From an uncultured Geobacteraceae bacterium (GTDB lineage: Bacteria; Desulfobacterota; Desulfuromonadia; Geobacterales; Pseudopelobacteraceae), in contig CAIUSO010000071.1 in the NCBI GenBank assembly GCA_903901875.1, positions 1-64,000 of the forward strand: 64,000 bases of DNA. Direction: 5' to 3'. Numbering within the stretch: the stretch's first letter is position 1; the number at the start of each line of letters is the position of its first letter. Shown in pieces: positions 39,720-52,211 of the stretch. The position numbers and the translations under genes are program-made. The notes under the pieces were generated by a model, which searched no databases, had not been told where the DNA came from, and saw nothing but the letters and a program-made list of their open reading frames with translations.

Positions 39720-41668
39720 AGATAGGGATCTATTTTTGTAACTGCGGCAGTAACATTGCTGACAAAATCAGTGCTGATGCGGTCAGGGAGGCATCCCGCA
39801 CCTTTCCCGACCAGCCGTATGTTGCCACGGTGGATTTCATCTGTTCAGAATCGGGGCAGGAGCAGTTTGTGGAAAGCCTGACGTTTGAACGGCCGGACCG
39901 GGTTGTCGTGGCTGCCTGTTCTCCCCGTGACCACGAAGGAACCATGCAGCACTGTCTGGCCAGGGGGGGGATAAACCCCTACCTGATGCAGATGGTCAAC
40001 ATTCGCGAACAGATCGCCTGGGTGACTGAAGATAGGGACCGTGCCACAGAAAAGGCGATCACGGCCATTCGGGGGGCGGTCTACCGGGTACGGCTTCAGG
40101 AACCGTTGCGGAAGAAACAGGTGGCAGTCTGCACCGATGTACTGGTGATTGGTGCGGGTCCGGCCGGGATGAAGGCCGCGGTATCCCTTGCCGAGGCGGG
40201 ACGATCGGTGGTGCTGGTGGAGCGGTCCCCCTTTATTGGTGGCTTGCCGGTTCGCTTTGATGAACTCTTTCCGGCCCTGGAGTGTGCTCCCTGTCTGCTG
40301 GAACCGCTGATGGGGGAGCTGCTCCATGGTGACCATTCGGAGGCCATCGAATTGCTCACCTTGGCGGAGCTGTGGCAGGTAACCGGTTTTTACGGTAATT
40401 TTATTGCCAAAATCAAAAAAAAGCCGCGCCATGTTTCGCTCCATGGATGTATCGGCTGCGGCGAGTGTACCCTGGCGTGTCCTGCCACAACCCGAAACCG
40501 CCTTCATAACAACGGCAGTGAGCAAAAAGCGGTGGACTTCGCCTTTGCGGGTATGCTGCCGAATGCACCGTTTTTGAGGGAGGAAGTCTGTCTCCGTTTC
40601 CAGGGAAGTGACTGCCGGGCCTGTAAGGATGCCTGCCCCATGGGTGAAGATGTCATTGATCTGGATGAAGGGGAATCCCTGCTTGAGCGAAACATCGGAG
40701 CTATTATTATCGCCACCGGTGCCGGGCTCTTTGATGCTTCCCGGCTTGCCGGCATGGGGAGGGGAATGCTGCCCGATGTGTATGATGCCCTGCAGTTCGA
40801 GCATATGCTGTCATCGACCGGTCCCACGGGGGGGGGAATTGTCACGTCATCGGGAGAGGTGCCGGCTGCGGTGGCCATCATTCATTGTGTCGGCAGTCTT
40901 GATGGGGACCATTGCGCCTACTGCTCGGGAATCTGCTGCCAGTACGCGTTCAAGTTCAACCATGCCATCAGTGCGAAGTACCCGGAGACGGTCATAACCC
41001 ATTATCATCGAGAGCTGGTTGCGCCGGGCAAGGAGGCGTACGCCCTTATGGAAGCGGCCCGCACCAGGCGGAATTCCTCGTTTATACGTTGCGATAGCGG
41101 CAACTATCCGGTCATAACACCGGAGGGTACTGGCCGGTTGCAGGTGAGGGGGGAGGACGTGGTGACGATTGCCGACATGGTCATTCTCTGCCCGGCTATT
41201 GTTCCTGCCGAGGGGGCGGACCGGCTTGCCGCACTGCTGGATATTAATCGTGATTGCGCCGGTTTTTACGATGAGCTCCAAGGTCGAATGGACGCTTCCC
41301 AGAGCACCCTGAAGGGCATCTATCTGGCAGGTGCCTGTCGGGAGCCGATGGATATACAAAAGGCCCTTCTCGAAGGGATGGCGGCGGTGGGTCATGCCCT
41401 GGCCGGACTTCAGCCGGGACGTATGATCGAAGTCGAGCCGGCCACTGCGGAAGTAGCAACATCAAGGTGCGCCGGGTGCCATCTCTGTAGTTCCGTCTGC
41501 CCGTACCATGCCATATCCTTTGATTCAGAACAGCATGTTTCCTCGGTCAATGGTGTGCTCTGTCGTGGCTGCGGCACCTGCGTGGCAGCCTGTCCCGCCG
41601 GAGCGATCACCGGCCACCATTTTACCAATGAACAGATTCTGGCTGAGATAGAAGGGCTTCTGAAATGA
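39701..41668 (+). CDS. HdrA-like FAD/iron-sulfur protein (heterodisulfide reductase subunit A family)
   Basis: GIYFCNCGSNIAD; VLVIGAGPAGMKAAVSLAEAGRSVVLVERSPFIGG; two C-terminal 4Fe-4S motifs. Confidence 0.9.
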   Translation: MAGGGVKIGIYFCNCGSNIADKISADAVREASRTFPDQPYVATVDFICSESGQEQFVESLTFERPDRVVVAACSPRDHEGTMQHCLARGGINPYLMQMVNIREQIAWVTEDRDRATEKAITAIRGAVYRVRLQEPLRKKQVAVCTDVLVIGAGPAGMKAAVSLAEAGRSVVLVERSPFIGGLPVRFDELFPALECAPCLLEPLMGELLHGDHSEAIELLTLAELWQVTGFYGNFIAKIKKKPRHVSLHGCIGCGECTLACPATTRNRLHNNGSEQKAVDFAFAGMLPNAPFLREEVCLRFQGSDCRACKDACPMGEDVIDLDEGESLLERNIGAIIIATGAGLFDASRLAGMGRGMLPDVYDALQFEHMLSSTGPTGGGIVTSSGEVPAAVAIIHCVGSLDGDHCAYCSGICCQYAFKFNHAISAKYPETVITHYHRELVAPGKEAYALMEAARTRRNSSFIRCDSGNYPVITPEGTGRLQVRGEDVVTIADMVILCPAIVPAEGADRLAALLDINRDCAGFYDELQGRMDASQSTLKGIYLAGACREPMDIQKALLEGMAAVGHALAGLQPGRMIEVEPATAEVATSRCAGCHLCSSVCPYHAISFDSEQHVSSVNGVLCRGCGTCVAACPAGAITGHHFTNEQILAEIEGLLK

Positions 41669-42078
41669 GTGCGAACGGTGGATTTGAACCCAAAATCATC
41701 GCCTTCCTCTGTAACTGGTGCTCCTATGCGGGGGCCGACAAGGCGGGAGGTATGCAGAAACCCTATCCTCCCAATGTGCATATCATTCGCGTCATGTGCA
41801 GTGGACGGGTTGATCCCCACTTCATTCTTTCTGCCTTTGCACAGGGGGCCGATGGCGTGTTGATTCTGGCATGCCACCCCGGAGATTGTCATTATAAAGA
41901 GGGGAACTGCCGGGCCTTGCAGCGACACCGTCTGTTGAGTCTGGTACTTCAGCAGTTCGGGATTGTTTCAGCTCGTTGCCGCATGGATTATGTTTCAGCA
42001 GGCGAAGGGGAAAAATTCAGACGAATTATCACCGAGATGGTTGAAGTCTTACGAAAACGAGAAGCTCTGCCGGAGTAG
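41665..42078 (+). CDS. MvhD-type hydrogenase iron-sulfur subunit
   Basis: IIAFLCNWCSYAGADKAGG; RVMCSGRVDPHFILSAFAQGADGVLILACHPGDCHYKEGN. Confidence 0.9.
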   Translation: MSANGGFEPKIIAFLCNWCSYAGADKAGGMQKPYPPNVHIIRVMCSGRVDPHFILSAFAQGADGVLILACHPGDCHYKEGNCRALQRHRLLSLVLQQFGIVSARCRMDYVSAGEGEKFRRIITEMVEVLRKREALPE

Positions 42079-42088
42079 TGAAATAAAT

Positions 42089-43426
42089 ATGAAGTTACCC
42101 CATGTACGCCCCCTGCTTGAACTTGCTATCCCGATGATCCTGTCAACGTCAGCAATCTCCATAATGCAGATAATTGATGCCATCATCTTGTCGCGTCACT
42201 CCAGCGAAGCCGTTGCGGCCATAGGACCATCGGGGCTTGCGGTCATTCTGTTCCAGGGGCTTCTGTTTGGTACTGCCGGGTACGCCGGGACATTTGTTGC
42301 CCATAGCCATGGTCGGGGTGACCCCTCGGGTGTACGGGCGTCCGCCTGGCTTGGTATCTATACCGCAGTGGCCTCCGGGTTAATAGCCCTTGCGGTTGCC
42401 TGGCCCCTTGCCCAACTATTCTTTATGGCGGGCCACGAACCCAAGGTTGCACAGGATGAATGCATCTATTTCGGGATCTGTATGGCCGGTTCCCTCTTTC
42501 CGGTACTGAGTTCCGCTTTGACCGGCTGGCTCTCGGGCATAGGCCGTCCGGTTATCGTTACCGGTGTGACATTTATTTCACTTGTGGTGAATGCTCTGTG
42601 CGCCTGGGGTCTGGTTTTGGGGGAGTGGGGCCTTCCCCGGATGGGTATTGCGGGGGCTGCCCTTGCCACTGTGGGTGCTCAAGCCGTTACGGTGATTCTC
42701 TGTGTGGTCCTGTTTGGAATGTCGGGGGGGCTTACGGATCCGCTTGCCCGGCGGATTAACTGGGGTGAGTACCGGCGGTTTTTGCTGGTGGCTCTGCCCA
42801 TGGGATTGCGTATCAGTGGTGAGCTTGCGGCGTGGACGCTCTTTCTGGTTGTGGTAGGGCGATTGGGTACGGTGGAACTTGCGGCCTCCAGCATCGCCTT
42901 CAGAATAAACGGTACGGCTTTTTTCCCCGCCCTTGGCCTGGGGCAGGCAGCCGGTGTGTTGGTGGGCCATGCCCGTGGGGGAGGGCGGGACAGCGACATA
43001 CCCGGAATCGGCTGGCAGTCCCTCATGGTGTGTGAACTATGGATGGTGACCATGGCACTGCTGTTCGCAGTGGCATCGGCCCCGCTGGTTTCACTGTTTG
43101 CCGGGACCGGTGCCGAAAGTGCCGGGATTGTGAGGACCGGTTCCCTGCTTATGAAGTTTGTGGCCTTCTATTGTATCTTCGATGCCGCGAATGTGGTTAT
43201 TGGCAGTGTGCTGGCTGCGGCGGGGGATACCCCGTGGATCGCCCGTACTTTTTTTGCCTGCTCGGGGCTCTTCGTGGTGGCACTCTGGCTGATTGATCGA
43301 ACTATTCCCGGTTTGGTGGCGGAATGGTCACTTGCCACATTTTTTGTGTTTGCAACCGCAGTCATCTGGTCTATTCGTTTCCACGCCGGTGTGTGGCGGA
43401 AACTCAAGCCCTTTGTTACCCGGTAA
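42089..43426 (+). CDS. MATE family efflux transporter
   Basis: LLELAIPMILSTSAISIMQIIDAIILSRHSSEAVAAIG, multi-TM. Confidence 0.9.
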   Translation: MKLPHVRPLLELAIPMILSTSAISIMQIIDAIILSRHSSEAVAAIGPSGLAVILFQGLLFGTAGYAGTFVAHSHGRGDPSGVRASAWLGIYTAVASGLIALAVAWPLAQLFFMAGHEPKVAQDECIYFGICMAGSLFPVLSSALTGWLSGIGRPVIVTGVTFISLVVNALCAWGLVLGEWGLPRMGIAGAALATVGAQAVTVILCVVLFGMSGGLTDPLARRINWGEYRRFLLVALPMGLRISGELAAWTLFLVVVGRLGTVELAASSIAFRINGTAFFPALGLGQAAGVLVGHARGGGRDSDIPGIGWQSLMVCELWMVTMALLFAVASAPLVSLFAGTGAESAGIVRTGSLLMKFVAFYCIFDAANVVIGSVLAAAGDTPWIARTFFACSGLFVVALWLIDRTIPGLVAEWSLATFFVFATAVIWSIRFHAGVWRKLKPFVTR

Positions 43427-43443
43427 CAAAGGGCCTCTTCGAA

Positions 43444-44919
43444 TTACTCCAGCCCTTTTTCAGCGATTTCGATGGCCCGGCGAGCTGCCATGGCCTTGTT
43501 GACGGTTTCCTGCCATTCGGCTGCCGCGTCTGAATCTGCAACCACGCCACCACCGGCCTGCAGGTGTACCATGCCATCCTTGATAACCAGAGTCCGGATG
43601 GTAATGGCCAGATCCATATTCCCTGAAAAGGAGAAATAGCCCACGGCACCACCATAGATTTCACGGCGGGACGGTTCAAGCTCGTCAATAATCTGCATGG
43701 CCCGGATTTTCGGGGCACCGGAAAGAGTACCGGCCGGAAAGGCGGCCCGCACCAGATCGAAGGCATCACGCCCCTTTTCAAGTTCTCCCCGCACATTTGA
43801 AACGATGTGCATGACGTGGGAATACCGCTCAATAATCATCAGCTCGGTGACGGTGACCGAACCGGTGGTACAGACCCTTCCCAGGTCGTTTCTACCCAGA
43901 TCAACCAGCATCACATGCTCGGCACGTTCCTTGGGATCTGCCAGCAGTTCATCGGCCAGTCTGCCGTCTTCTTCAGGGGTTGCTCCCCGTGGTCTGGTTC
44001 CGGCGATGGGGCGCAATTCAACACGGGTTCCCTCTTTTCGGACCATAACTTCCGGTGAGGCTCCGGCGATTACCGTATCGTCGAGGCGGAGGAAGAACAT
44101 ATAGGGGGAGGGATTCAGTGTCCGCATGACCCGGTAGATGTCAAAGGGATCGGCCGAGAGCCTGCCGCTGAAACGCTGGGAGGGAACAACCTGAATGATG
44201 TCTCCCGCCCGAACGTACTCCTTGGCCTTTTCCACCGAGGCTTCATACTGCTCACGGGTCATGTTCGAGGTCAGTACCACCGGGGTTACGGCTGGCACAC
44301 GTGTTTCCGCCGGCAGAGGGGTCTTCAGCCGGGCGACGATGGCATCGATCTTCCTGGTCGCCTCATCATATGCCTGTTCGGCAGAGACCTCTCCGTTCAG
44401 GTGGGCGTTTGACACAACTTTTATTTTCTGACTCATGGTGTCAAAAATGACGATGGTGTCGGTTATGAGAAAGTAGGAATCATAGGCGTCAATGAGGGCC
44501 GGTTTTTTTGTGGGGAGGTGTTCAAAGTGCCGCACCATATCATACCCCAGATAGCCGACGGCACCGCCGAAAAAGCGGGGGAGTCCCTCAACCTCTACCG
44601 GTTCAAATGTTGCCAACAGGGCGCGGATTTCGGCCAGGGGGTCTTCGGAAACGATCGTGGTGGTGATATTGTTTTCAATGGTTTCAACAACAGAACCCTT
44701 TGAACGGATGATCAGGGAGGGATTTGAACCGAGAAAACTGTAGCGACCCCATTTTTCCCCCCCCTCAATACTTTCGAGAAGATAGGAAAATTGACCATTA
44801 TCGATTTTTCGAAAGGCCGATACCGGTGTATCCATATCAGCCATGATCTCCCGGTAAACCGGAATAAGATTACCCTCTGTGGCAAGGGTGTGGAATGTGG
44901 CGCGTGGCGGGAAAAACAT
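43444..44919 (-). CDS. trpE: Anthranilate synthase component I
   Basis: PYMFFLRLDDTVIAGASPEVMVRKEG; RPIAGTRPRGATPEED; FPAGTLSGAPKIRAMQIIDELEP. Confidence 0.94.
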   Translation of the reverse strand: MFFPPRATFHTLATEGNLIPVYREIMADMDTPVSAFRKIDNGQFSYLLESIEGGEKWGRYSFLGSNPSLIIRSKGSVVETIENNITTTIVSEDPLAEIRALLATFEPVEVEGLPRFFGGAVGYLGYDMVRHFEHLPTKKPALIDAYDSYFLITDTIVIFDTMSQKIKVVSNAHLNGEVSAEQAYDEATRKIDAIVARLKTPLPAETRVPAVTPVVLTSNMTREQYEASVEKAKEYVRAGDIIQVVPSQRFSGRLSADPFDIYRVMRTLNPSPYMFFLRLDDTVIAGASPEVMVRKEGTRVELRPIAGTRPRGATPEEDGRLADELLADPKERAEHVMLVDLGRNDLGRVCTTGSVTVTELMIIERYSHVMHIVSNVRGELEKGRDAFDLVRAAFPAGTLSGAPKIRAMQIIDELEPSRREIYGGAVGYFSFSGNMDLAITIRTLVIKDGMVHLQAGGGVVADSDAAAEWQETVNKAMAARRAIEIAEKGLE

Positions 44920-45187
44920 GGGCAACTCCGAAATTTTAATGACCTGAAAAAAACTAACACAGGCACCGGAGAGAGTCAAGTAACCCACGGACCTTTTCAG
45001 GGTCAGGAGGCTGACAATAATAAGATGACCGGAAGATGAGATGGAAGCTGTTCGTGGTATTGTTGCCTGCCTCCTGAGAAAAAAATCCCGAGAGTAAAGT
45101 TAGTTTGTATTTTTCTTTGTATGCTGTATATTAGCCCGTGAACATGAACGGATTGCTATGCCACACGTGAAAGGTGACCAACCGACT

Positions 45188-46129
45188 ATGAAGCAGAGTA
45201 AAATACTTCTTGAAAGCGATACCAATGAACTTGAGATTGTTGAGTTCAGGATCGATGAAGTTGATTGGCATGGTACTGTTCTTCCCTGCTACTACGGTGT
45301 CAACGTGGCCAAGGTGCGCGAAATAATCCGTCTGCCCCAAATGTCACGGGTGGTGAACGCCAAGCCGGGTGTTGAGGGGATGATAAAACTTCGTGACAAG
45401 GTGATCACTATAATCAACCTTGCCACGGTACTCAATAAATCCGTCGGTGATCTTGTTGCCGACCGGGTGGTGGTTCTTGAGTTTAATAATTTGATGGTCG
45501 GGGTCCTTGTTCATTCGGTGTCCCGTATCTACCGTATTTCCTGGAGAAACGTTGAAGCACCTTCTGCTGCGGTCCACAGCGATGAGGTTACCGGTCTGGT
45601 AAAAATGGATGACCGTATCATCCTTGTTCTCGATTTCGAAAAAATAGTGGCGGAACTTTGTTCCGAAAGTGCCCTCAAACCCCTGGATGAAATGCTGCTT
45701 GAACGGGAAGAACCCCATCCGGAACGGGTACAAAAAACAGTTTTGGTGGCGGATGACTCAGTATTTATCCGGAAAACACTCTGTTCCGGTCTCCGGTCGG
45801 CCGGCTATAATGTCATTGAAGCGGAAAACGGTTTACAGGCGTGGGAAATTATCCAGGAAACCCTTGAAAAGGTTGCCAAGGGGGATGGAACCTTGTTGGG
45901 GCATATCAGTATGTTGATTACCGATGTGGAGATGCCCCAGATGGATGGTCTCCATTTGACATCGCTGGTACGAAAAGACGATGGGCTGAAAGATATGCCG
46001 GTGGCCATATTCTCATCACTGGCATCGGATGACAACAAGCGTAAGTGGATCGGACTCGGTGCCAACTGTATTCTCACCAAACCGGATCTCCCCCGTCTGG
46101 TAACCGTTGTTGACGAACTGACCGCATGA
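45188..46129 (+). CDS. cheV: CheV-type chemotaxis protein (CheW plus REC)
   Basis: CheW-like N-terminus, REC with VLVADDSVFIRKTLCSGL and ITDVEMPQMDGLHLTSLVRKD. Confidence 0.88.
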   Translation: MKQSKILLESDTNELEIVEFRIDEVDWHGTVLPCYYGVNVAKVREIIRLPQMSRVVNAKPGVEGMIKLRDKVITIINLATVLNKSVGDLVADRVVVLEFNNLMVGVLVHSVSRIYRISWRNVEAPSAAVHSDEVTGLVKMDDRIILVLDFEKIVAELCSESALKPLDEMLLEREEPHPERVQKTVLVADDSVFIRKTLCSGLRSAGYNVIEAENGLQAWEIIQETLEKVAKGDGTLLGHISMLITDVEMPQMDGLHLTSLVRKDDGLKDMPVAIFSSLASDDNKRKWIGLGANCILTKPDLPRLVTVVDELTA

Positions 46130-46172
46130 TTGTCACTTGACAAGCTGTCAACTCTATGATTAAGTGAAGCCT

Positions 46173-46256
46173 ATGAACTCACACAGCTTCTTTACAGCTT
46201 TTAACTTTTATTTCTGGTACGGCTATTTCATGCCGTCTGCCCGGGTAGAGGTGTAA
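46173..46256 (+). CDS. Aromatic-residue-rich leader peptide (attenuation) upstream of DAHP synthase
   Basis: MNSHSFFTAFNFYFWYGYFMPSARVEV*: 10 of 27 residues are F/Y/W in a block, followed by alternative hairpins and a terminator. Confidence 0.8.
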   Translation: MNSHSFFTAFNFYFWYGYFMPSARVEV

Positions 46257-46282
46257 GCCGAGAAGCTATCACACAAAACCAC

Positions 46283-46317
46283 AACCGGGGCAGACGCGAA
46301 TCTTCCCCGGTTTTTTT
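46283..46317 (+). terminator. Attenuator terminator of the DAHP synthase leader
   Basis: AACCGGGG-N14-CCCCGGTT followed by Ts. Confidence 0.8.
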
Positions 46318-46391
46318 CTGTCTTTCAGAGAACAGTAAGAGCCGGGGTAGTTTCCCGGCTCTTACTTGTTTGTGGCATGAAAGGACACCAT

Positions 46392-47411
46392 ATGATTATC
46401 GTCATGAAGGCAGGAGCTGCAAAGAAGGACCAGGATGAAGTTTTGAAGCGGATCAAGGAACTGGGATACACCTCCCATGTGATCCATGGTGCTACCCGCG
46501 ATGTGATTGGGGCCATTGGAGATGAACGGGGAAAAATGGCACTTCAAGCCCTTGAAACCCTCCATGGTGTTGAAAATGTCGTACCCATCCTGCAACCGTA
46601 TAAATTGGCTTCCCTAGAGGTAAAAAAGGAGTCAAGCACGGTACGCATCAGTGATGATATCGTTATTGGCGGTTCCCGTATCATTATGATGGCCGGTCCC
46701 TGCTCGGTGGAAAGTGAAGAGCAGATTATTGAGTCGGCCCTCGCGGTGAAAAAATCCGGTGCCCATATTCTGCGGGGCGGTGCCTTCAAACCCCGCACCT
46801 CTCCCTACTCCTTCCAGGGGCTTGAAGAGGAAGGGCTCAAGTTGCTGGCCAAGGCCAGGGACCTGACCGGACTTCCCTTTGTCACGGAAGTTATTAATCC
46901 GGAAACCGCCGACATGGTGGCAGACTATGCCGATATTCTGCAAATCGGTGCCCGTAATTCACAAAACTTTGCCCTTCTCAAAAAGGTGGGACAACTCGGC
47001 AAGCCGGTACTGCTGAAACGGGGTATGGCCATGACTATTCAGGAATTGCTCATGAGTGCCGAGTACATCATGAGTGAGGGGAATCAGTCGGTTATTCTCT
47101 GTGAACGGGGCATCAGGACCTTTGAAACGGCCACCCGGAATACACTGGATCTGTCGGCCATACCGGTGTTGAAGGGGAAAACCCACCTGCCGGTGGTCAT
47201 CGATCCGTCCCATGGTACGGGTAATCACCATTATGTTGCTCCCATGAGTTATGCTGCCGTTGCTGCCGGTGCCGATGGTCTGATCGTTGAGGTTCATCCG
47301 GACCCCGAACATGCCTCCTCCGATGGGGCGCAATCGTTGAAGCCGGGAAAATTTGATGAAATGATGAAAAAGTTGCGCCTCTTTGCCGAAGCGGATGGCA
47401 GGACACTGTAG
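46392..47411 (+). CDS. aroF: 3-deoxy-7-phosphoheptulonate (DAHP) synthase
   Basis: [61 protein letters not shown]. Confidence 0.95.
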
Positions 47412-47418
47412 TCAGTTA

Positions 47419-47482
47419 AGAGGGGGGATTTGTTTGAAAGCAAATTCCCCCTGACCCCCCTTTTATAAAGGGGGGGAAATAT
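47419..47482. repeat. Palindromic intergenic repeat
   Basis: GGGGGATTTGTTTGAAAGCAAATTCCCCC plus CCCCCCTTTTATAAAGGGGGG. Confidence 0.6.
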
Positions 47483-47518
47483 ATGTGTCATCTTTTTTCA
47501 AAACGGGGATGATGAAAT

Positions 47519-48766
47519 TTAGCTCTCTTCCGAATGATCCGGATATAGCTTCTCTATCTGCCGGAAGGTATCAATTGACTCAATGAAAATCTCCACCAGT
47601 TCCGGGTCAAACTGTTTTCCCGCCTCACTTCGTATGTTGTCCAGCACATCCGATTCACTCCACGCTTCCTTGTAACATCTCCTGCATGAAAGGGCGTCAT
47701 AGACGTCGGCCAGTGCCACTATTCTGCCAAAAAAAGGAATTTCCTCCCCCCGTTTACCTCGGGGGGTGCCATCTTCATTGGCATGGTCCGGGAGCGGTTG
47801 CTGGGTATGGGGGTCAATGTAGCCCGGATAACCGTTGCCGTCCCACCGTTCATGGTGATTAATGGCCACAATAGCCGCCGATTCGTCAAAATCGGAATAC
47901 ATCTCGGAAAACAGATTGGCACCGTAGAGGGTGTGGAGTTTCATAATCAGGTATTCATCCGGTGTGAACTTCCCCGGTTTCTTCAGGATAGCATCGGAAA
48001 TGGCAACCTTACCGACGTCATGGAGCATTGCCGACATCCGGAGGGTATCACGGGTTCGGTCGATTTCTTCCTGGCAAATCCCCTTTTTAAATGCCCATGC
48101 CTCATAGAGTGCTACCGAGTAGGCGGCGACGCGGTTGACGTGGGGACCGGTTTCCTTGGGGTCCCGCAATTCCGCCATCTTATTCATCCTCAGTATTATT
48201 TCTCTGGTCATCTTCGCCCGTTCAATGGCCGCCGTAGCATTGCCGGCGTAATAGACGATGATCTCCTCATCCTGTGCGGCAAAGGGAATCGTTGTGCCAT
48301 CGGTTTCATCTTTGGCATTGATCAACTGCAAAACTCCGATAACCTCACCACGGAAATTCTGAAGGGGAATGGTCAGCATGGAACGGGTCCGGTACCCGGT
48401 GATGTCATCGTAGGAACGGTTAAAGGAGAAGGGGTACTGTTCATCAAGGTCATACACATCGGCAATGTTGAGGATGGTGCCATGGGTCGCAACATAACCG
48501 GAAATGGAGGAACTGTCGATGGGAACGGTAAAGGTTGTGTAGGGGAGCTTTTTTCCAGGGGGCAACTGTTGCACCATGGTATCATTCTGTGCATAGCGGA
48601 ATCTGAGCTGCCCATTTTCACGGATATAGATGGAACCGGCATCGGCATTGGTGAAACTCCGCGCTTCACGGAGAACCTTTTCCAGGAGCAGGTCAATATC
48701 CTTGATCTGGGAAACAATCAACCCCAGCTCAATTACCTTCCGAAGTTTCTCTTCACGATGGGACAT
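47519..48766 (-). CDS. GAF plus HD-GYP domain protein
   Basis: GAF-like N-terminus; MLHDVGKVAISDAILKKPGKFT; NHHERWDGNGYPGYIDP. Confidence 0.9.
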   Translation of the reverse strand: MSHREEKLRKVIELGLIVSQIKDIDLLLEKVLREARSFTNADAGSIYIRENGQLRFRYAQNDTMVQQLPPGKKLPYTTFTVPIDSSSISGYVATHGTILNIADVYDLDEQYPFSFNRSYDDITGYRTRSMLTIPLQNFRGEVIGVLQLINAKDETDGTTIPFAAQDEEIIVYYAGNATAAIERAKMTREIILRMNKMAELRDPKETGPHVNRVAAYSVALYEAWAFKKGICQEEIDRTRDTLRMSAMLHDVGKVAISDAILKKPGKFTPDEYLIMKLHTLYGANLFSEMYSDFDESAAIVAINHHERWDGNGYPGYIDPHTQQPLPDHANEDGTPRGKRGEEIPFFGRIVALADVYDALSCRRCYKEAWSESDVLDNIRSEAGKQFDPELVEIFIESIDTFRQIEKLYPDHSEES

Positions 48767-48944
48767 GGGGGTACCTCCCGTTAATCTGGTCTAAAATATA
48801 GTACAACAAATGGGGCATCATATCAAAGGAGAGAATTGGTGAATCCCCATTATTATTTTTGAAGTTGTGTGGGATAGATGTTTAATCTACAATATCATAA
48901 TGTTATGTTTTAAGACCCGCTATTTTCTCACTTCAGGAGGTCCC

Positions 48945-49421
48945 ATGAAAGACATGGTTCGATTGTTCGCAGTAATGATGCTGTTGCTCGTGGTGCCGGT
49001 GTCTGGGCACACACAGGAGGGTGAAACGCCACTGGAAAAAAGTATGTCCCGGACTCTGGATGCCTGGAGGGAAGGGCGCTATGAGCTGCTCTTTGATATG
49101 CTGTCCAAGCGGGGGAAAGTATCCCGCGAACAATTTATCGTAAAAATGAGGGATACGTCAGTTCGTCCCGCCTGTTGCTGGGAAAAAATGGAGAAGTTTA
49201 CGGTACTTTCCGAAAAAACGTCGGAAGCAACGGTCTATGTCAAGATCGGTCTGGAGGGAACCCCGCTGGATACGAAATCGATAACCAGAGAATTCAAGTT
49301 GACAAACCAGGGGGGAGACTGGAAGATGCATCTTTCTGATATTTTTTCCATTGCCGGGATATCGCCGGTCAAGAGTCCGCCGAAAAAGCGGCACAGCAGG
49401 AAAATACTGACGTACAACTGA
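48945..49421 (+). CDS. Hypothetical secreted protein
   Basis: Signal peptide MKDMVRLFAVMMLLLVVPVSGHTQ. Confidence 0.65.
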   Translation: MKDMVRLFAVMMLLLVVPVSGHTQEGETPLEKSMSRTLDAWREGRYELLFDMLSKRGKVSREQFIVKMRDTSVRPACCWEKMEKFTVLSEKTSEATVYVKIGLEGTPLDTKSITREFKLTNQGGDWKMHLSDIFSIAGISPVKSPPKKRHSRKILTYN

Positions 49422-49433
49422 GGGACTATTACC

Positions 49434-50576
49434 ATGACCGATGCCATGGAACGAAATGATCTGGCCGGCTACGCCTGCCGCAGCTCCGCCTCCCGGGGGC
49501 GCAAACATGATGAGGAACTTCGGGACAATCGCCCCGCCTTTGAACGGGACCGCGATCGGATTATCCATTGCGCCGCATTCCGGCGCCTGGAATATAAAAC
49601 CCAGGTATTCGTCAACCACGAAGGGGACTATTACCGGACCCGCTTGACCCACTCCCTTGAGGTTGCACAGATCGGTCGGGCCATTGCCCGGAAACTCCGC
49701 CTGAATGAAGAGCTCACCGAAGCACTGGCGTTGTCCCACGATTTGGGACACACCCCCTTTGGCCATACCGGAGAAGAGGTGTTAAACCGTCTTATGGCCG
49801 GTTTTGGTGGATTTGAACATAATCTGCAGTCGTTTCGGGTGGTGGATGAACTGGAAGAACGGTATCCCGGTTTCAACGGACTGAATCTGACCTGGGAAGT
49901 GCGGGAGGGGATCATCAAACACTCGTCCCACTATGACGCTACCAGTGAGGTCATGGCCGAATTCCTGCCGGGAACGGTATCATCAATTGAAGGGCAGATT
50001 ATCAATTATGCCGATGAAATAGCCTATAACAATCATGATATCGATGACGGCCTGAAGGCCGGCTACATTACCCTTGAACAGCTTGAACAGGTTGAGCTGT
50101 GGCGGGAGGCTTGTGCAGGAGTACGCAGGAAATATCCGGCAATAGATCAGAAACGTCTCGTGTATCAGACCATCAGTGCCTTGATCGGCCTCTTGATCAG
50201 CGATATCTGCGTAACAACCGGGTCAAATATTGAACTCTACTGCATAACGTCACCCGATATATTACGCAGTAATAACCGTGCTGTTGTTCATTTTACCGAT
50301 GACATCACCGCCCGGAATCTTGAGTTGAAGAAGTTTCTGTTCCATAATCTGTATCGTCACTATAAAGTTGACAAAATGCGGGTGAAGGCGGAAATCTTCA
50401 TCACCCGGTTATTTGAAACCTATTGCCGGTATCCCAACCTGCTCCCCCCCAAATATCAGGCCCGGTTGGAGCAACGGGAGCTTCATCGGGTTGTCTGCGA
50501 CTACATTGCCGGCATGACCGACCGCTTTGCCCTGGATGAATATAAACGGCTTTTCGAACCCTATGAGAGAGTATAA
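49434..50576 (+). CDS. dgt: dGTPase-like deoxynucleoside triphosphate triphosphohydrolase
   Basis: RDRIIHCAAFRRLEYKTQVFVNHEGDYYRTRLTHSLEVAQIGRAIAR; ALSHDLGHTPFGHTGEEVL. Confidence 0.93.
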   Translation: MTDAMERNDLAGYACRSSASRGRKHDEELRDNRPAFERDRDRIIHCAAFRRLEYKTQVFVNHEGDYYRTRLTHSLEVAQIGRAIARKLRLNEELTEALALSHDLGHTPFGHTGEEVLNRLMAGFGGFEHNLQSFRVVDELEERYPGFNGLNLTWEVREGIIKHSSHYDATSEVMAEFLPGTVSSIEGQIINYADEIAYNNHDIDDGLKAGYITLEQLEQVELWREACAGVRRKYPAIDQKRLVYQTISALIGLLISDICVTTGSNIELYCITSPDILRSNNRAVVHFTDDITARNLELKKFLFHNLYRHYKVDKMRVKAEIFITRLFETYCRYPNLLPPKYQARLEQRELHRVVCDYIAGMTDRFALDEYKRLFEPYERV

Positions 50577-50578
50577 CA

Positions 50579-51184
50579 ATGACACCAATTGCCGAACCGG
50601 AACAGCATGATTTTTTCGCTTTTCTTTCCCGCATGCGCTACATCGGACGCTGGGGTCTCATGCGCAACACCGTGCCGGAAAATATCCAGGAACATAGTCT
50701 GGATGTGGCCATTATTGCCCATGCCCTGGTCATGATCCGTATTACCTATTACGGTGGCACTCTCGACCCCTCACGCGCCGCGATGTACGGTATTTTTCAT
50801 GATACCAGTGAAATCTTTACCGGTGATATGCCGACGCCTGTCAAACATTTCAATCCGGATTTCAAACAGTCATTCCATGAGCTGGAGGATCGGGCCCGGA
50901 GAAAACTGCTGGCCATGCTCCCGGCCGAACTTGCGAAGGAATATGAGCCTCTGTTTTTCTTCGATGAGCAGGAGGAGTATGTTCAGGTGGTCAAGGCCGC
51001 AGATAAAATTGCGGCCCTGACCAAATGTATCGAGGAGGGAAAGAGTGGCAATAATGAATTCCGCCGAGCCGAGGCGGAACATTTTGAGCAGCTTTCTGCC
51101 AGTACACTGCCGGAAGTGGGCTATTTTCTCAAACGGCTGCTCCCCGGTTACCGGCTGTCGCTTGATGAGCTGAAGCTGGGGTGA
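50579..51184 (+). CDS. 5'-deoxynucleotidase YfbR-like (HD domain)
   Basis: RYIGRWGLMRNTVPENIQEHSLDVAIIAHALV; FHDTSEIFTGDMPTPVKHFNP. Confidence 0.9.
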   Translation: MTPIAEPEQHDFFAFLSRMRYIGRWGLMRNTVPENIQEHSLDVAIIAHALVMIRITYYGGTLDPSRAAMYGIFHDTSEIFTGDMPTPVKHFNPDFKQSFHELEDRARRKLLAMLPAELAKEYEPLFFFDEQEEYVQVVKAADKIAALTKCIEEGKSGNNEFRRAEAEHFEQLSASTLPEVGYFLKRLLPGYRLSLDELKLG

Positions 51185-51203
51185 GACCCCAGGAGACAGA
51201 TTC

Positions 51204-52211
51204 CTACGCCACCAGATATTTTCCCACGGCAGCGGGCCCCATGTCATTACAGACGGTGAACTCCTGCCGTGAATCATTAAGGCGCAGTTCCATCCGACAG
51301 TGGCTTCCCGGTTCGGCTTTGGTATAGCGGAGCAGTATGCGGGCACCCAGAGTATAGTGCTTTTCGTCCTGAACACCGGTGATGATAACCACCGGGGTAT
51401 TGCCATCCTGCCAGGTCACTGCTGCCTCGCCCGGTTGTCGGAACTGTTCAAGCAGATTATTGTCGGCTTCGTTGCGCCCCATGATCGCCTTGCTTCGGGG
51501 GGCGATGCGGAAATGTCTGCCGGTTTTGAGCAGGCGAAAATCCCGAAGATTGAGCTCTTCCGCATGGTCGAACACATCCTTGATTTTCGGAACGAACGAC
51601 AGTTCGGTCAACAGGCAGCCACCTGCGGGGCAGGGGTAGTTCTTCACGTCCAACTCTTCCGCCAGCTGCATCTGTATCGACCGGGAACGCCCTTCGATAT
51701 CTAACAACTTACTCCGGTCTACCCACCCCTCTTTTTCCGGAATGGTCGGCTCAAAATGCCGTGCCGACAGGGGACGGAGCAGTAACCCTTCCAGACCGCT
51801 TTCCCGCTCAATAACGCGCAGGGTGTCCCGTCGCTGACTCATTGGCCGCTGGCCAAGGACTTCGCCGGTAAACACAAAGTCTGCCCCGATCTCTTCCATA
51901 TATTCCTTGGCCTTTTTAAGGAGGAATATTCTGCAATCGATGCAGGGATTAACCCCCTTGCCATGTCCATGGACCGGATTACGGACGATTTCCAGGTAAT
52001 CTAACCCCTTGTGCATGACTTTTATCGGAATATCGTACTCCTCGGCAACGCGTACCGCCTCGGATTTACAACCTGAATTCTTGCCGGTGCAGGTGCAGAA
52101 CGGCGAAGTGAAATTGAGTGCCACCACCTCGATGCCGCAGTCAAGCATCATCTTGACCGCGAGGGTGGAATCCAGCCCTCCTGAGAGGAGGGCGATTGCT
52201 TTACGTTTCAT
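51204..52211 (-). CDS. PP-loop ATPase, tRNA sulfurtransferase-like (ThiI-related)
   Basis: KAIALLSGGLDSTLAVKMML; NPCIDCRIFLLKKAKEYMEEIGADFVFTGEVLGQRPMSQ. Confidence 0.82.
   Translation of the reverse strand: MKRKAIALLSGGLDSTLAVKMMLDCGIEVVALNFTSPFCTCTGKNSGCKSEAVRVAEEYDIPIKVMHKGLDYLEIVRNPVHGHGKGVNPCIDCRIFLLKKAKEYMEEIGADFVFTGEVLGQRPMSQRRDTLRVIERESGLEGLLLRPLSARHFEPTIPEKEGWVDRSKLLDIEGRSRSIQMQLAEELDVKNYPCPAGGCLLTELSFVPKIKDVFDHAEELNLRDFRLLKTGRHFRIAPRSKAIMGRNEADNNLLEQFRQPGEAAVTWQDGNTPVVIITGVQDEKHYTLGARILLRYTKAEPGSHCRMELRLNDSRQEFTVCNDMGPAAVGKYLVA

Follow-up and report, generated by a model that had tools for sequence, protein, structure and literature searches.

The pheL and trpL attenuators of Escherichia coli are each centred on one amino acid and have a leader ORF led by a Shine-Dalgarno sequence; neither is known to carry a conserved domain beyond its terminator. 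The AroR leader of Corynebacterium glutamicum is reportedly leaderless, as Neshat et al. are said to have described in 2014.

The pheL-pheA and trpL-trp systems resemble the element described here in having a leader ORF with codons for the pathway product, alternative 1:2, 2:3 and 3:4 helices and an intrinsic terminator (PMC11802643). AroR-aroF, likened here by description, also stands before a DAHP synthase gene and has Phe-Tyr-Phe codons (PMC4046766, PMC11802643), although this actinobacterial leader responds to Phe and not to Tyr, and no Trp codon is reported in it (PMC11802643). The uORFC-13-1 motif of Acholeplasma, found by comparison only, places a uORF with Phe codons and a terminator before aroF (PMC8632094). 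Unlike the present element, it occurs only in Acholeplasma and environmental sequences, and it has a ribosome-binding site, a run of Phe codons and a different structure (PMC8632094). In Sinorhizobium meliloti, the first nucleotides of the trpL attenuator RNA are the ATG of its leader ORF, as is predicted here, but trpL concerns Trp only and controls trpE(G) (PMC7298713). For Shewanella and E. coli, too, an attenuator ahead of the DAHP synthase gene aroF has been proposed (PMC2659441); that proposal, again likened by description, involves Tyr sensing and a different class of DAHP synthase (PMC2659441).

Against this background, the mechanism of the element described here is of a known kind, since attenuated, leaderless and Phe/Tyr aroF leaders are all known elsewhere. 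The element itself is a class-wide and apparently undescribed variant: its codons cover all three aromatic amino acids, its start is predicted to be leaderless in one of the orders, and it carries a further conserved domain. The main text of a broad attenuator survey (PMC2965389) mentions neither Geobacter nor aroF, and the six mentions of Geobacter in a 2005 tyrA paper (PMC1173090) all stand outside its table of predicted attenuators. A search among open-licence papers found none describing the aroF element, and an earlier description is possible.

Results

The window, by which we mean the whole 64,000-nucleotide stretch of an uncultured Geobacteraceae bacterium that was analysed, carries aroF at 46392-47411; this gene and the leader features below lie on the forward strand. 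The product is a type I-beta 3-deoxy-7-phosphoheptulonate (DAHP) synthase with an N-terminal ferredoxin-like domain, which matches NCBIfam models PRK08673 (508.6 bits) and TIGR01361 (397.9 bits) above their cut-offs, and the gene is monocistronic in the window. Judged by Shine-Dalgarno spacing, the start is likely to be the ATG at 46392, behind AAAGGA (46380-46385), and not position 46377. The same genome (G000) has another DAHP synthase gene, 54% identical, at C109:256-1239 (L057); it follows a gene for a Crp-like regulator, and no such leader precedes it. The region upstream of trpE (window 44995-45082, minus strand; likely start ATG 44919) contains no Trp leader peptide and carries a long interrupted inverted repeat, CAGGAGGC..AACAATA / TATTATTGTCAGCCTCCTG.

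Upstream of aroF lies the leader ORF (46173-46256; coding 46173-46253, TAA 46254-46256). Its 27 codons specify MNSHSFFTAFNFYFWYGYFMPSARVEV, with the 6 Phe, 3 Tyr and 1 Trp that a sequence-only reading of this stretch had claimed. The window copy is atypical, having GYFMPSAR where relatives have GFYFRPSAR and one codon fewer. Segment 1 (ACGGC, 46219-46223) can pair with segment 2 (GCCGTCTGCCC, 46232-46242), and the 1:2 hairpin claimed earlier, ACGGC with GCCGT at 46232-46236, is in place. Segment 2 has segment 3 as its other partner. The antiterminator had been placed at 46234-46241/46289-46296 and is in fact one pair longer: nine pairs join CGTCTGCCC (46234-46242) to the segment 3 core GGGCAGACG (46288-46296). 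It has an inner extension (46250-46282), GGTGT...ACAC in the window and GGTTTG/CAAACC or GGTCTG/CAGACC in other genera. Segment 3, as 46283-46290, can instead pair with segment 4 to form T1 (46283-46317; -16.2 kcal/mol), the terminator expected before aroF, in which AACCGGGG (46283-46290) and CCCCGGTT (46305-46312) make the stem and T46311-46317 the U-tract.

A simple terminator scan missed T1 because its loop is long; the sole call was a second hairpin, HP2, a terminator-like structure of 14 bp at 46334-46366. Around both runs a long-range helix, P0, in which CCACAA (46279-46284) pairs with TTGTGG (46370-46375), closing HP2 over T1 and ending 4 nt before the aroF Shine-Dalgarno sequence. The sequence-only reading had thus located its elements correctly and ended its span too early, at 46317, as conserved structure continues to about 46375; the domain beyond T1 had escaped it. 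The fold of 46173-46376 has z = -7.8 against shuffles. An Rfam scan of window positions 40000-52000 (E up to 1; families including T-box and the Phe, Trp and His leaders) placed no leader family at the locus, and its two weak matches lie elsewhere.

Relatives were then compared. An aroF ortholog is present in 58/58 of them and an aromatic leader in all 56 that have upstream sequence, with the consensus M..RFY.AFSFYFW[FY]GFYFRPSARV. In 132 of 141 Geobacterales genomes, representing all 29 genera, a leader-peptide profile gave a match ahead of the aroF ortholog, and the leader is therefore not a product of chance. Of the nine genomes lacking a match, G417 has a diverged leader that was found by eye. 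Five assemblies contain no aroF ortholog: in G426, G358 and G351 the 54% paralog is the only copy, and G402 and G423 yielded nothing matching aroF at the threshold applied. In G002 and G019, aroF is cut at a contig end. G398 (L212) has lost the whole aroF leader: only 27 nt separate the end of the upstream CheV-like gene from the Shine-Dalgarno sequence of aroF. This is a natural deletion of the attenuator, which leaves aroF with a short, ordinary 5′ UTR. At L056 (G022), the leader Trp codon is lost (TTG), and HP2 and P0 are lost as well; an aroF fragment in this genome has an internal stop, and L056 is either a decaying copy or an assembly error.

When the profile was run on 297 sampled genomes of the phylum, it matched only once outside the order; this hit, in G288 outside the class (E 0.01), was put down to chance and rejected, as it lies inside an unrelated ORF and not at aroF. 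Scanning every GTDB species genome with a pattern yielded 46 confirmed loci, with titles naming Geobacteraceae, Desulfuromonadales or unclassified deltaproteobacterial sources and, in one case, only Proteobacteria. Leaders of the sister order Desulfuromonadales have the same architecture in more diverged form, so the leader is class-wide.

Comparison of relatives bore out the proposed conservation of Phe, Tyr and Trp codons. The single Trp codon is kept in 78/79 non-redundant Geobacterales leaders. Numbered from it as 0, the aromatic positions of these 79 leaders are -9, -8, -5, -3, -2, -1, +1, +3, +4 and +5, and the aromatic fraction is 0.90-1.00 at codons W-3, -1, 0, +3, +4 and +5. Phe and Tyr exchange frequently at codons outside any helix, so that what is kept there is the class of amino acid and not the bases. 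N-terminal residues vary except at the aromatic positions. At the C-terminal end, xPSAR is conserved at the base level, where it coincides with segment 2, and its first codon is free to change.

Upstream of the ORF, a predicted promoter includes a -35 box, TTGACA (46137-46142), and an extended -10 element, TGaTTAAGT (46157-46165). TTGAC is found in 96/96 relatives, at 29-32 nt from the leader ATG in 94 of the 96, and the -10 profile TGn[TA][TA][AT]A[AG]T ends 6-7 nt before the ATG. Culturable bacteria of the kind of Citrifermentans bremense and Geomonas carry both the leader and TTGACA, as confirmed at L104, L097 and L098. There is no Shine-Dalgarno sequence before the ATG of Geobacterales leaders, where pairing energy is at shuffle level (-1.24 vs. 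-1.83 for shuffled sequences). Pairing with the anti-Shine-Dalgarno below -4 kcal/mol occurs in 8% of these leaders vs. 11% of shuffled sequences; by the same measure the values are 78% for Desulfuromonadales leaders and 100% for aroF starts, which served as a positive control (strong pairing in 39/39). Given the TTGAC spacing, the extended -10 and the shuffle-level pairing, transcription is predicted to start at the leader ATG or within 1-2 nt of it. Geobacterales leaders thus appear to be leaderless, a feature that the sequence-only reading had overlooked, whereas Desulfuromonadales leaders are Shine-Dalgarno-led. A palindrome, TTGACAagcTGTCAA (window 46130-46151), overlaps the -35 region; it is kept in the sister copy L002 and not in most relatives.

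Covariation was measured on one sequence per genus (29 genera) by comparing the duplex energy of each sequence's own two strands with that of strands shuffled among sequences. This duplex test was used because column alignments split some strands; column-based pair counting (alignment A2) was set aside for P0, whose strand MAFFT splits by one base between genera. With a shuffle that leaves some shared ancestry in place, own strands were favoured by -2.3 kcal/mol for 3:4 (z -6.4), -1.4 for 2:3 (z -4.5), -1.3 for the inner extension of 2:3 (in5:p5; z -4.0), -2.8 for HP2 (5:6; z -8.4) and -2.5 for P0 (z -5.7). Control pairs mostly gave z -0.4 to +1.4; 1:6 reached -3.8 (0.26 kcal/mol) and 3:p3, which overlaps P0, -2.7. 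The value for 1:2, a helix of only 4-5 bp (-0.3 kcal/mol, z -3.0), is the same size as that of control 1:6, and effects this small are therefore not to be trusted alone. The compensatory stem changes to be expected in relatives were thus found in both 2:3 and 3:4, an example being the pair GTCCACCC/GGGTGGAC of 2:3 in genus g221. P0 occurs as CCACAA/TTGTGG, CCGAAA/TTTCGG, CCGGAA/TTCCGG, CCAAAAG/CTTTTGG, CTACAAA/TTTGTAG and CCGCAA/TTGCGG; six base-paired versions in different lineages would be hard to explain without selection for pairing.

A helix between segments 4 and 5 (the latter in HP2) is not claimed. Its strands are complementary in many genera, nearly perfectly so in G354, but they do not covary convincingly (z -1.3 with one sequence per genus). 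At L156 (G354), HP2 has lost its 3′ strand, and its 5′ strand instead forms a nearly perfect pairing with segment 4 of the terminator, an alternative fold without support in other genera.

The consequences of stalling were modelled in 78 sequences by placing a ribosome footprint at each codon and folding the RNA just before segment 4 emerges. The probability of 2:3 was 0.86-0.89 for stalls from W-6 to W+3, 0.72 at W+4, 0.38 at W+5, 0.04 at W+6 and 0 at the stop codon, and it was 0.46 without a ribosome. The last aromatic codon is W+5. In these simulations, the placement of aromatic codons is as would be expected if shortage of Phe, Tyr or Trp were the signal. In full-length equilibrium folds, T1 was favoured at every stall position (P34 at least 0.60). 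Antitermination would therefore have to be kinetic, decided during transcription, as is usual for attenuators.

Downstream of T1, the two orders differ. In many genera of Geobacterales, the 5′ strand of P0 shares bases with the inner antiterminator helix. A P0-like pairing with a strand before T1 was looked for in Desulfuromonadales and is absent; there, HP2 is closed by another helix, which starts from the T1 U-tract and extends to the Shine-Dalgarno region (own strands -19.8 vs. -17.3 kcal/mol, 1 of 2000 shuffles). Both orders thus select a closed structure at this place by different pairings. At the Desulfuromonadales loci L182-L211, the T1 U-tract together with GGATCGATG forms pairs with ATCGATCC and with A-rich bases next to it at the Shine-Dalgarno sequence of aroF, possibly a translational lock specific to this order. 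A pairing of the T1 U-tract with the aroF Shine-Dalgarno sequence seen by eye in the window was rejected, as it is not conserved in near relatives.

Discussion

Taken together, codon conservation and covarying alternative stems strongly support the claim of ribosome-mediated attenuation at aroF, and we consider it very probable that in this leader the attenuation of transcription is coupled to translation. The sequence itself shows the ORF, covarying helices that exclude one another, and aromatic codons placed precisely where a stalled ribosome would be of use; from these we infer the transcription start, termination, stalling and the response to Trp. Transcription would probably start at the leader ATG, with ribosomes presumably loading on the leaderless end. 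While tRNAs for Phe, Tyr and Trp are charged, the ribosome would reach the stop codon and cover segment 2, 3:4 would form T1, and transcription would end near 46317. Shortage of any one of these amino acids would make the ribosome stall around ..FYFWYGY.. and cover segment 1, leaving segment 2 to capture segment 3 and the inner extension as they emerge; T1 would then come too late, and aroF would be transcribed. Without a ribosome, hairpin 1:2 would sequester segment 2 and favour termination. After read-through, P0, T1 and HP2 would fold into a compact domain beside the aroF Shine-Dalgarno sequence.

Sensing of all three aromatic amino acids had been claimed at the outset. For Phe and Tyr this is well supported by the codon record; for Trp it is likely, resting on retention of the codon, but the two G of TGG are base-paired when the 1:2 hairpin folds, so that Trp conservation in Geobacterales is not purely codon-level. 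An attenuator that reads Phe and Tyr only, its Trp codon being kept for the bases of helix 1:2 or having little effect, would also fit that pairing, a ratio of one Trp codon to about nine for Phe and Tyr, and the precedent of C. glutamicum AroR, in which only Phe limitation mattered despite Phe-Tyr-Phe codons (PMC11802643). We regard it as unlikely, though worth keeping in view. Trp sits at the centre of the productive stall window, and it is present in 23/23 Desulfuromonadales leaders examined, even where it has moved and the core motif is broken (L184, L191, L195, L197, L211); because ORF choice favoured aromatic-rich ORFs, that count is supporting and not decisive. Strong conservation of FWxGFYFRPSAR across the class could instead suggest arrest of the nascent chain in the manner of TnaC, with free aromatic amino acids sensed in the ribosome and not tRNA charging. 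RNA segment 2 explains RPSAR, however, whose first R changes to S, K, Q, G, T or M while the following bases stay constant; apart from the aromatic positions the N-terminal residues vary, and the place where 2:3 forms leads one to expect induction on starvation. Arrest is thus very improbable. A shade less probable still is that the ORF is a mere uORF before a constitutive pair of terminators with no regulation: two strong hairpins do stand in tandem, but 2:3 and its inner extension covary independently of 3:4, and the codon content of the leader fits the pathway.

Possible roles for P0 and HP2 are insulation of the Shine-Dalgarno sequence, mRNA stability and a second switch. Most likely, and this is only a guess, the domain serves as a shield or insulator for the ribosome-binding site or for the 5′ end of the mRNA. 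A second switch would make HP2 and P0 a translational checkpoint, or a second terminator, acting on read-through RNA. Covariation of both helices as strong as that of T1, the P0 3′ strand stopping just short of the Shine-Dalgarno sequence in the window, the Desulfuromonadales helix extending into that region, and the overlap of P0 with the inner antiterminator helix all agree with it. In Geobacterales, however, P0 leaves the Shine-Dalgarno sequence itself uncovered; the wiring differs between orders, no flipping signal is known, and a passive role explains the same data, which makes a second switch doubtful. Slightly more tentative is the joint reading of the Desulfuromonadia leader as a two-tier device, in which a tri-aromatic leaderless attenuator and a post-terminator domain controlling translation or stability of the read-through mRNA would share the antiterminator strand and switch together.

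Whatever the role of this covarying domain 3′ of the terminator, it is testable. Of particular interest is the predicted switch of one orthologous leader from a Shine-Dalgarno-led to a leaderless start. Homologous leaders of the two kinds, the second apparently leaderless, stand in sister orders and make a natural experiment on the mode of initiation in attenuation. For the Geobacterales, a group important for metal reduction, the aroF leader appears to be the conserved point at which entry into aromatic amino acid synthesis is controlled and, if this is true, it would be a clear case of a single leader reading all three end products at their shared first step.
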